A DNA stretch of 33,186 nucleotides from Thermoproteota archaeon (GTDB lineage: Archaea; Thermoproteota; Thermoprotei_A; Sulfolobales; Pyrodictiaceae): positions 1-33,186 of the forward strand of contig JAADFC010000081.1 of the NCBI GenBank assembly GCA_013153105.1, in the 5' to 3' direction. The position numbers and the translations under genes were made by a program. The notes below the pieces were generated by a model. That model did not search any database and was not told where the DNA came from. It saw only the letters and a program-made list of their open reading frames with translations. Within the stretch, counting starts at the first letter, position 1, and each line of letters starts with the position of its first letter. This document shows positions 14,992 to 21,411 of the stretch, piece after piece.

Positions 14992-16716
14992 CTAGGCTGC
15001 CTCTTCGCGGGCGGCGTCCTCGTCTGGCAGTAGCAGTAGTAGCGGCTCTGGCGCGTCCCGTGTGGAGGCGACGGCCCACCCGGTGTCTATGACTGCGAGT
15101 GTCTTCATTACAGTGTTTATGGCGTTCTCTTCAGTGTGGCCTGTCACGAGCTGGGCCATGTACCTTGCTTCGCGTGGCTCGGACTGTCGGAGTGCTATGC
15201 GTAGCGCGGCGTTTGAGGGTATTGAATGGTGTATGCTGCTTGGCTGCTGCGTCAGAGCGGTGAGTACTACGCCGTACTTCCTGGCCTCGGCGTACAGTTT
15301 CGCTGCTATGTTGTCCCTGTCTTCTTTCGGCGCGTATATGTGGGCCTCGTCCAGGACTATGAGCAGCCTCGCCCGCGGCCCCGCGTGGCCGAGGAGCTGC
15401 ATATGGGTGTAGACGAGTCTGAGCAGGGTGTCCACGTATAGCCGTTTTTGCTCGTGGCTGCGGAGTTGTGAGAGGTCTATTATCGTGTTGGACTTGAACA
15501 GCTCTCCCACGTTTACGGTAGTCCTCGAGAACGTCGAGCCTGCAAGCAGTGCTATGTAGCTTGCCAGGAGGGCTGCCCGTTTATCGTGGACGGCGAGTCG
15601 GCGTAGATACGCTTCAAGGTCGGCCAGTGTCGGGCCGGGCCGCCGCCACGTGGCGGGGTCGTCGTCCCGTATCTCGCTGGCCTCGTATAGCTCTGACAGC
15701 GCCTGCTCTAGCAGCTGCTGCTGGAGCGGGCCGAGCCGGAAGATGGAGGCTATCAGCTGGGCAGCCTCGGCCGCTCTCTCCCGGGGCGGGGCGCCAGCGG
15801 GGTCTAGGGGGTTCACGGCTGCCCGACGCGGGTCTAGCACCCTAAAGCCTGGCAGCAGTCTAGCATACTCGCCGTGCGGGTCTACGACGAGAACGTGCAC
15901 CCCCTGCGCTGCGGCCTCGGCTGCGAGGCGGGCTGCGAGCCTGGACTTACCGGCGCCGGTGGCGCCGGCTATGAAGCCGTGGGTGGGCCCGTCGACCCTT
16001 AGAAGCCTGGTTCTAGCCTCCGTGGGCTGTAGGGAGAGCAGCCAGCCCCAGGGCCCGTGGCGCGGCTCCGGGAGCTTCACGTGTAGGCAGTTGCACCTGC
16101 TGAGCGCGGCTACAACCCTACCGAGGCGTGTCTCGCCGGTCCCCGCCGGTATGGGGGGCGGCAGCAGGGAGAGCCCGGTCACGGCGGCGGAGGGCTCGTA
16201 GACGGCTATGGCTGCGATGACCGCAGCGGCTGCGGTGGCTGGCGTGCATGAGAGAAGCGTGAACCCGTGGACCATGAAGGCTGCTATTACAGCGCCCGGC
16301 AGCGTCGGCTGGCCAGCCGCGGGCAGGGCTGCGGCGGCCGCGGCTGCGAGCAGGAGGTTGAGCCCGCTTCTCTGGAGGCTGCAGAGCGACTTGGGGGCCG
16401 CCAGCAGGGGGAGGGTAAGTGTGAGCGGGTCCCGGCCGCCCCGGAGGCTGCGGTAGGCGTTGACCAGTGCAGCTATTATCGCGGCGGACACGGCCGGGGA
16501 GGCGTAGCCTCCGAGGCCTGTTGCGGCTGCAACCCACGCAGCCACCGCCACGGAGGCGGCCGCCGAGCCGGTCAGCAGCGTCAGCGCGGCCTCGGCGACG
16601 TGTACCGCCGCCCAGCCGAGGGAACCAGGCTCCAGCATTGGGGCCGGCGCGAGCAGGGCGGCGGTTGCCACTGCTATAAGCGTCAGCCGTCTACACCCAG
16701 AGACCGGCTGCTCCAT
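14992..16716 (-). CDS. HerA/VirD4-like ATPase with polytopic N-terminal membrane domain (CedB-like candidate)
   Basis: ~200 aa hydrophobic Ala/Leu-rich N-terminus, Walker A GATGAGKSRLAARLAAEAA, DPHGEYARLLPG, Walker B LLIVLDEAHIYAPKE, TQQPSSIHHSIPSNA. Confidence 0.85.
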   Translation of the reverse strand: MEQPVSGCRRLTLIAVATAALLAPAPMLEPGSLGWAAVHVAEAALTLLTGSAAASVAVAAWVAAATGLGGYASPAVSAAIIAALVNAYRSLRGGRDPLTLTLPLLAAPKSLCSLQRSGLNLLLAAAAAAALPAAGQPTLPGAVIAAFMVHGFTLLSCTPATAAAAVIAAIAVYEPSAAVTGLSLLPPPIPAGTGETRLGRVVAALSRCNCLHVKLPEPRHGPWGWLLSLQPTEARTRLLRVDGPTHGFIAGATGAGKSRLAARLAAEAAAQGVHVLVVDPHGEYARLLPGFRVLDPRRAAVNPLDPAGAPPRERAAEAAQLIASIFRLGPLQQQLLEQALSELYEASEIRDDDPATWRRPGPTLADLEAYLRRLAVHDKRAALLASYIALLAGSTFSRTTVNVGELFKSNTIIDLSQLRSHEQKRLYVDTLLRLVYTHMQLLGHAGPRARLLIVLDEAHIYAPKEDRDNIAAKLYAEARKYGVVLTALTQQPSSIHHSIPSNAALRIALRQSEPREARYMAQLVTGHTEENAINTVMKTLAVIDTGWAVASTRDAPEPLLLLLPDEDAAREEAA

Positions 16717-19613: not shown

Positions 19614-19877
19614 TTGGCGCAGGGGATAACCGAGCTTATCTCACAGCTGACCCAGCAGGTGGTCAGCGCGGCCTGGGGCCTCTTTCTGCTAACCTGGAGC
19701 CTAGGCTGGATACTTCGCGGCGCCCCTATACCCTTCCTCCGTGTAAAACGCGCAGGCCAGGACCTTGTCGAAGATGCTGTGTGGGCCGCCTTCTGGCTCG
19801 CCGTCGGCTCAACGATATTCGCAGCTGTATCATATATAGCAAACACGATATCGAGCTCTGTAACCGGGGTAGGGTGA
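19614..19877 (+). CDS. Small 2-TM membrane protein, CedA1/VirB2-like pilin candidate
   Basis: 87 aa, two hydrophobic segments around a basic loop (RGAPIPFLRVKRAGQD); TTG start with GGGGAGG SD; immediately upstream of the CedA-like gene. Confidence 0.75.
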   Translation: MAQGITELISQLTQQVVSAAWGLFLLTWSLGWILRGAPIPFLRVKRAGQDLVEDAVWAAFWLAVGSTIFAAVSYIANTISSSVTGVG

Positions 19878-19884
19878 CGTAGCG

Positions 19885-21411
19885 TTGCTGGTATCGCAGC
19901 TGCTGGCGATAGCGACCCAGCTGGCAGTGCTGACATACTACACGGGAGTCCTCATCTACATGTTACCCATACCCCTCAAGAGGCTGAAGAGGCTAGCCCC
20001 CCATCTCATGGTCGACGGGCTCTACGCGGCGCTCCTCATAGGGCTATTCTCCACCCTGCTCTATGTGAGTGACTACATAGGGAGCCTCAGCGGCTACACG
20101 CTGATGGATGTTTTGGTAACGACGCAGGGGTACTTCCGTGGTGTACTCGAGCTGTACTACATGAAGAAGATGTACGAGCTTCTGATGAGCGCCATACCCA
20201 TAGGCAAACCCTCACTCGCAATATCGATAATATTCATACCGCTAATGGTTGTATACACATTCATAGTATCAGCGAGCCTGTCCCTGCTCTCCATCGTACT
20301 CTCCGTGATAAACCTCAAAGCAGAGCTAATGGCACTGGGCGTCGCGCTATACGCCGTACCACTTCGCCTCGCGCGGAGCGCAGGCGCGTCACTGATAGCC
20401 TTCGCCCTTGTAGTCAACGCGGCGCTCCCGTTCTTCCCCCACTGGATGAAGATGATACTAAGCTCGGTAGGCCTCTCAGAGAAGGAGCTGTTCTGGGAAA
20501 ACGAGACGCTGACAACCTATCCAACACCAAGCCTGCACCCCTTCTGGGGAAGAGTTACAGACAGCCTAGGCGACGCGCCGAAGTACGCAGTGGTGGCGGT
20601 AGAGAATTCGACTACAGTCATACTATACCAGACTAACCGCCAAGGATACTATGCAGCATCAAACCCTGCACCCTCCACAGGAACCTATGATATATACGTG
20701 GACTACATGGGCTTGAAGATAACCGAGCCCCCACTGATGCGGGTCAGAGTGCCAGCCGACCTAGAGCCTACATACGAAGCCACCATACTCCCGTACCGGT
20801 TCGACATCAAGCTCTCAAGTATCGTGAAGTTCCTTGAACCGCAGGCCATCCTATGGACGAACTGCGCTATAGAAGACGCAGAACACTACATAGCACCGGA
20901 CGGAGACAGGATAGTGCATAGCAACGTTCTGAAGTGCACGTTCATGATAAGCCCAGAACTGCATGCAATGATGGGTCTACCCTCAGCATGTAGGCTACGC
21001 TCATTCCTGATACAACCCCCAAGCGTTGGCGGAGTCACGAGGGCGACTCTCGAGCAGAGGGACTGGCACGGGCTCCAGGTCGATGTATACAGTATCGTGG
21101 GCCTAGTGAACCTAACAAAAATAGAGAACGGAGGCTTTACGCTAAGGATAGACTACGACTGCCCTAGGAACTATGTGCCCTACCAGCCTCTTGGCGTCTC
21201 AAGCTTGGAGCCTGACAGCCTCTATGCACAAGTAACAGCAGAACTCGAGAAAAGCGTTGAAAAAGCTGATATGATGAATATAATACCGTTTGGTATAGCA
21301 TTCAGCCTCTCAGTATTTTCATTTCTAACAATAGTAATGCTTATCGTTAGAGATACGGCGCGTTTGATTGGCGCGTACTCGCCTTCGATAGTAATCGAGC
21401 CCCTGAGGTGA
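19885..21411 (+). CDS. Polytopic membrane protein, CedA/VirB6-like, with ~270-aa predicted ectodomain
   Basis: Multiple N-terminal TM segments (to ~aa 187), hydrophilic beta-rich region with four Cys, one C-terminal TM; TTG start; operon context with pilin-like and ATPase genes. Confidence 0.75.
   Translation: MLVSQLLAIATQLAVLTYYTGVLIYMLPIPLKRLKRLAPHLMVDGLYAALLIGLFSTLLYVSDYIGSLSGYTLMDVLVTTQGYFRGVLELYYMKKMYELLMSAIPIGKPSLAISIIFIPLMVVYTFIVSASLSLLSIVLSVINLKAELMALGVALYAVPLRLARSAGASLIAFALVVNAALPFFPHWMKMILSSVGLSEKELFWENETLTTYPTPSLHPFWGRVTDSLGDAPKYAVVAVENSTTVILYQTNRQGYYAASNPAPSTGTYDIYVDYMGLKITEPPLMRVRVPADLEPTYEATILPYRFDIKLSSIVKFLEPQAILWTNCAIEDAEHYIAPDGDRIVHSNVLKCTFMISPELHAMMGLPSACRLRSFLIQPPSVGGVTRATLEQRDWHGLQVDVYSIVGLVNLTKIENGGFTLRIDYDCPRNYVPYQPLGVSSLEPDSLYAQVTAELEKSVEKADMMNIIPFGIAFSLSVFSFLTIVMLIVRDTARLIGAYSPSIVIEPLR

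Follow-up and report, generated by a model that had tools for sequence, protein, structure and literature searches.

A pilin-like hairpin at the start of the CedA channel protein and its resemblance to the partner pilin CedA1 in an archaeal Ced locus

The window (the whole stretch of 33,186 nucleotides analysed here, from a heat-loving archaeon whose incomplete assembly measures 1.22 Mb) carries a gene cluster of the Ced system for crenarchaeal DNA exchange, by whose membrane channel DNA of neighbouring cells is imported; the cluster is composed of cedA1, cedA, a small ORF with two transmembrane (TM) helices and a CedB-like gene on the plus strand, and of a CedD-like gene on the minus strand (Table 1). 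The order cedA1-cedA, the family models that recognise the products and a pilin with a solved pilus (8dfu) are those of the Ced system of Sulfolobales and Aeropyrum pernix; indeed, the pilin of the window exceeds the curated cut-off of the CedA1 model NF041797 and is a relative of the solved A. pernix pilus subunit (phmmer E 9e-25). The CedD-like ATPase, encoded some 3 kb away, upstream of cedA1 and on the opposite strand, is likely another Ced component, presumably the second half of a VirB4-like motor belonging to the same cluster.

Table 1. Features of the Ced cluster in the window (nucleotide positions of the window; residue numbers are those of the respective protein).
Feature	Position	Strand	Basis and details
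CedD-like HerA/VirB4-type ATPase, 574 aa, N-terminal hydrophobic segments	14992..16716	-	CedD model 3e-26, best NCBIfam match, below cut-off
cedA1, conjugative-type pilin of the Ced system	19614..19877	+	87 aa, TTG start; NF041797 126 bits, cut-off 100
CedA1 hairpin homologous to the CedA N-terminus	19647..19838	+	residues 12-75; BLASTP 21/64, E 2e-9
CedA1 loop PIPFLRVKR, common to CedA	19725..19751	+	G(-7), P0, P2 invariant; I1, K7 conserved (35 CedA1)
cedA, VirB6/CedA-like channel protein	19885..21411	+	508 aa, TTG start; NF041796 8e-29, below cut-off; 35 orthologues aligned
CedA pilin-like hairpin	19888..20079	+	residues 2-65; model cross-matches, BLASTP, hhalign, Foldseek to 8dfu
CedA loop PIPLKRLKR, common to CedA1	19966..19992	+	hairpin holds 4/6 CedA-invariant columns: G21, P28, P30, K35
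CedA beta-rich ectodomain	20542..21165	+	residues ~220-427; AlphaFold2; Pfam CarboxypepD_reg 5.4e-6, below cut-off
CedA C-terminal helices	21211..21372	+	residues 443-496; AlphaFold2
Two-TM ORF in CedA2 position, 59 aa	21408..21587	+	overlaps the 3' end of cedA; 5/8 families conserve its position and size
CedB-like HerA/VirB4-type ATPase, 424 aa, without N-terminal TM helix	21569..22843	+	CedB model 2.6e-9, best NCBIfam match; HerA_C

The channel protein reaches 101 bits over residues 3-193 with the CedA model NF041796 and misses its curated cut-off of 330 bits; this model has 259 positions, in keeping with the short CedA of Sulfolobaceae (250-265 aa), which is without the beta ectodomain of the window protein. 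The additional ectodomain and C-terminal helices are found also in the sampled families outside Sulfolobaceae; the protein adjoins cedA1, and its multi-TM core aligns with that of its orthologues. In Saccharolobus a second copy is present, the CedA paralogue CedE, the model of which matches both CedA and CedA1 of the window; no CedE was found in the (incomplete) genome of the window. As to the relationship with VirB6, a Pfam search of the window CedA for VirB6/TrbL returned no match, the CedA profile reaches a z of 2.3 against VirB6, and VirB6 of R388 (7o3v, chain 7o3v_I) resembles the CedA model only weakly in structure (rank 31, 15.7 A); the homology of the two proteins is taken here from the literature, by way of TedA (PMC9905601).

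The initial annotation had counted 18 identities over 53 ungapped positions between the pilin and the start of the channel protein; the count proved exact (pilin nucleotides 19680-19838 against cedA nucleotides 19921-20079), and BLASTP lengthens the ungapped match to 64 positions (the E-value in Table 1 being that of a single comparison). Two-TM hairpins being of low complexity, chance or TM composition had to be weighed as an explanation; when, however, CedA was permuted separately within TM1, loop and TM2, the shuffled sequences gave 5.1+-2.0 identities and none in 20,000 trials attained either 18 identities or the BLOSUM score of 77. With the PIPxxRxKR loop left out, the remaining match still exceeded all 20,000 shuffles, and the second-best position in CedA for the pilin segment scores 7. 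The curated models cross-match as well: the window CedA is matched by the CedA1 model (1.3e-7) and the window CedA1 by the CedA model (3.3e-7); over the whole host genome the CedA1 model finds, at E <= 10, CedA1 and CedA only, a specificity which likewise speaks against chance, and the CedA N-terminus alone retrieves the 8dfu pilin from the PDB (phmmer 1.9e-4). The copy is old, since the hairpins share 42% of their nucleotides and the agreement at third codon positions (23%) is what chance would give; this chance-level agreement also rules out that the duplication, or a gene conversion, took place recently in this genome.

The resemblance is a property of the family. In a survey of 300 genomes of the phylum with the CedA1 model, CedA1 was present in 44, that of the window among them, and in 43 of these the same model also matches the start of a CedA-type ORF (E <= 0.01); in the lone exception (G074) the CedA hairpin is degenerate. 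The other matches of the model in the 300 genomes are CedE, one distant CedA-like ORF (G049) and two weak stretches. Profiles built from 35 CedA1 and 36 CedA sequences align in register over 62-69 columns (hhalign E ~1e-11 to 1e-13; z 17 against column-shuffled nulls), while the CedA1 profile stays at background level against the other small two-TM families CedA2 and VirB3. A similarity confined to this one pair, or due to TM composition, is thus refuted by the shuffles, the profile z, the decoy families and the genome-wide specificity, and we regard chance as practically negligible. Numbered from the PIP motif, G(-7), P0, P2, K7 and D16 are near-invariant in both proteins, and four of the six invariant columns of CedA fall inside the pilin-like hairpin. 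In the hairpin phylogeny CedA1 and CedA separate with support 100 along a long branch, so that the duplication is older than the radiation of Sulfolobales. CedA1 and the hairpin formed by TM helices 1 and 2 of CedA are therefore paralogues, and the proposal that the channel protein acquired a pilin-like module by duplication is borne out by the curated models, the family profiles and the fold. This homology is already known: Beltran et al. described in 2023 almost the whole of CedA1 as homologous to the N-terminus of CedA (PMC9905601), and our literature search found no later work going beyond theirs on this point.

The predicted fold of the module agrees with that of the pilin. Template-free AlphaFold2 predicts two helices for the CedA hairpin, 2-26 and 32-53 (pLDDT 94-98), and models the 205-residue core with pLDDT 92 and pTM 0.81; Foldseek superposes the modelled hairpin on 8dfu with 1.2 A over 58 columns (prob 1.00, 34% identity). 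Among the matches listed for the core, 8dfu is the sole confident one in the PDB, the others having prob < 0.6; its E-value of 0.79 is not significant alone, the match being short. Foldseek with the whole CedA was set aside, weak ectodomain matches dominating its result.

Other conjugation-type systems are likewise composed of a pilin and a multi-TM channel, among them Ted of Thermoproteales (TedC/TedA). Five were compared: Ced, a system of Thermofilaceae (L106-L111), the Ted system of Vulcanisaeta-like genomes (L159-L161, L151), a system of the families f16/f20 (one pair each from L102 and L069), and a bacterial set of seven VirB2/VirB6 pairs from R388 and related plasmids; the three archaeal systems other than Ced were assembled from distant CedA matches, and Pyrobaculum is absent because a TedC of the P. 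calidifontis type was not recovered. In Thermofilaceae a pilin with a signal peptide lies directly upstream of a CedA/TedA-like channel, a Ced/Ted-like pair also seen in L133-L135. The pair had no NCBIfam name in the one member scanned; a public genome scan with the channel gave three loci only, through which the group was assigned to Thermofilaceae, and a search of the PDB for TedC with the Thermofilaceae pilin profile gave no match. In the Vulcanisaeta-like genomes, unlike in Ced, the TedC-type pilin is encoded directly 3' of the channel gene (divided between two frames in L151), and pilin and channel have in common the loop motif Y..[GH]PT...R. The f16/f20 pair, again a signal-peptide pilin beside a CedA-like channel (L102 831-2129 +; L069), occurs in 2 of 44 genomes of its order; this apparently sporadic distribution suggests a mobile element.

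As raw hhalign scores between systems vary with profile depth, the pairing comparison was redone with single sequences (Smith-Waterman against block-shuffled nulls). The mean z of a pilin against the channel hairpin of its own system is 9.9 in Ced, 2.2 in Ted, 2.1 in Thermofilaceae, 2.0 in f16/f20 and 0.8 in the plasmids, whereas foreign pilin-channel pairs, pilin-pilin pairs and channel-channel pairs have group means of 0.2-0.9. In all four archaeal systems the pilin scores higher with its own channel hairpin than with that of any other system. Summed over systems, the true pairing of pilins and channels is the best of 120, and with any single system dropped it still ranks first of 24; these tests were devised post hoc on five systems, with within-system z values of about 2 or less outside Ced. 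Eleven of the 12 own-partner alignments displayed join corresponding parts of the hairpins, that of L110 being out of register; the f16/f20 pilin matches CedA1 no less closely than the channel of its own system, and in the R388-type plasmids, unlike in Ced, the similarity of VirB2 and VirB6 profiles is not significant (seven sampled, z 1.0). Within Sulfolobales, the number of residues common to CedA1 and CedA is higher for same-family pairs than for pairs drawn from different families (family-level permutation p 0.0004), the excess being 0.097 in the correct register and at most 0.038 at other offsets; inside individual families no cognate excess is present.

These comparisons bear on a reading in which VirB2 and VirB6 derive from one duplication before the split of archaea and bacteria and evolved independently thereafter, the Ced pair being merely slow. 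Beltran et al. report the same homology for VirB2/VirB6 of A. tumefaciens at lower significance (PMC9905601), and some matches do cross the systems (P_ced-P_16 among the pilins, C_ced-C_16 and C_bac-C_16 among the channels); this scenario is nevertheless disfavoured, since it would make own and foreign partners equally distant, while the own pairing is found to be the best and, apart from its own channel, nothing is clearly related to the Thermofilaceae pilin, and we judge it quite improbable. Lineage-specific copying or coupled evolution, on the other hand, predicts a partner-specific resemblance, as the sequences suggest. It may tentatively be proposed, though we would not yet wager on it, that on several independent occasions archaeal conjugation-type pilins originated as copies of the N-terminal hairpin of the cognate channel, or have been kept homogeneous with it, because the contacts that a pilin makes with other pilins are also required of it on the channel; pilin and channel would then have co-evolved system by system and would not descend unchanged from one ancient VirB2/VirB6 pair. 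The partner-specific resemblance is possibly new and is offered as a lead, not as a result; the core of the observation being known, it is this testable extension that is worth following, and it predicts that the CedA hairpin and the pilin should be able to replace each other within one system only.

For the Ced system itself, we lean towards the view that the CedA hairpin is a pilin paralogue kept in a VirB6-type channel, where it would bind pilins, the two copies having been coupled since, or having arisen within the Ced lineage. After a duplication preceding the Sulfolobales radiation, one paralogue would have become the subunit of the Ced DNA-transfer pilus and the other would have been retained as the first module of the channel; either coupling or an origin within the Ced lineage could account for CedA1 and CedA resembling each other above the pilins and channels of other systems. 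Both hairpins would insert N-out/C-out with the PIPxx(R)xKR loop inside, and the CedA hairpins around the channel would bind those of CedA1 in the way CedA1 subunits pack against one another in the pilus; thereby they may gather pilins and offer a pilin-like surface from which the lipid-bound pilin helix could grow.

The suggestion of the initial annotation that the module is a docking or nucleation site for the pilus is plausible by analogy with R388, because there the strongest co-evolution of VirB2 and VirB6 falls on helix 1 of VirB6 and mutants lend it support. All 50 top co-evolving pairs lie on this helix, the proposed VirB2-recruitment site; mutations in it reduce conjugation, and in the proposed model it captures pilins, which then move up to where they are assembled on the VirB6 pentamer (PMC9259494). 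With its twist of 76.5 degrees (PMC9905601), the A. pernix pilus contains about 4.7 subunits per turn, and a ring of some five CedA hairpins with a pilin fold would be a natural docking or starting surface. Recruitment is probably the sounder part of this proposal, a literal helical template the less likely one. Beltran et al. have suggested a common export pathway as the meaning of the homology (PMC9905601), in which case the hairpin would be an insertion or export signal directing CedA and CedA1 along the same membrane route, and the CedA copy would never bind pilins. A conserved basic loop would indeed suit membrane topogenesis; conservation, however, runs through both helices, an in-register and partner-specific resemblance would be superfluous for a mere insertion signal, and helix 1 of R388 VirB6 is proposed to recruit VirB2 (PMC9259494), so that we consider this explanation unlikely. 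Were the channel to have a built-in pilin, as favoured here, the pilus base would be supplied with a template, and one could test whether conjugative pili go back to one ancient pilin or to repeated budding of pilins from channels; for bacterial work a caution follows, since a co-evolution signal between segments that are possibly distant homologues can partly reflect homology.

The 59 aa ORF of the window fits CedA2 in position, length and its two TM helices and is not matched by the CedA2 model NF041798; CedA2 has been described as non-conserved and VirB3 as absent in archaea. A two-TM ORF of 50-63 aa lies directly 3' of cedA in five of the eight families (L032-L071 and the window), being CedA2 in Sulfolobaceae. 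It is missing in f3 (with Aeropyrum), f5 and f6, where cedB follows cedA directly and starts with a TM helix of its own, a helix which CedB of f2 and of the window is without. CedA2-type proteins show no detectable similarity to VirB3 (profile z 0.6), so that CedA2 as a sequence homologue of VirB3 is not supported; the arrangement itself resembles that of VirB3, which adjoins VirB4 or is fused to it. Finally, the ectodomain of about 200 residues carried by CedA outside Sulfolobaceae weakly resembles carbohydrate-binding and adhesin domains in fold, the pneumococcal pilus adhesin RrgA among them, and might bind the surface of the partner cell.
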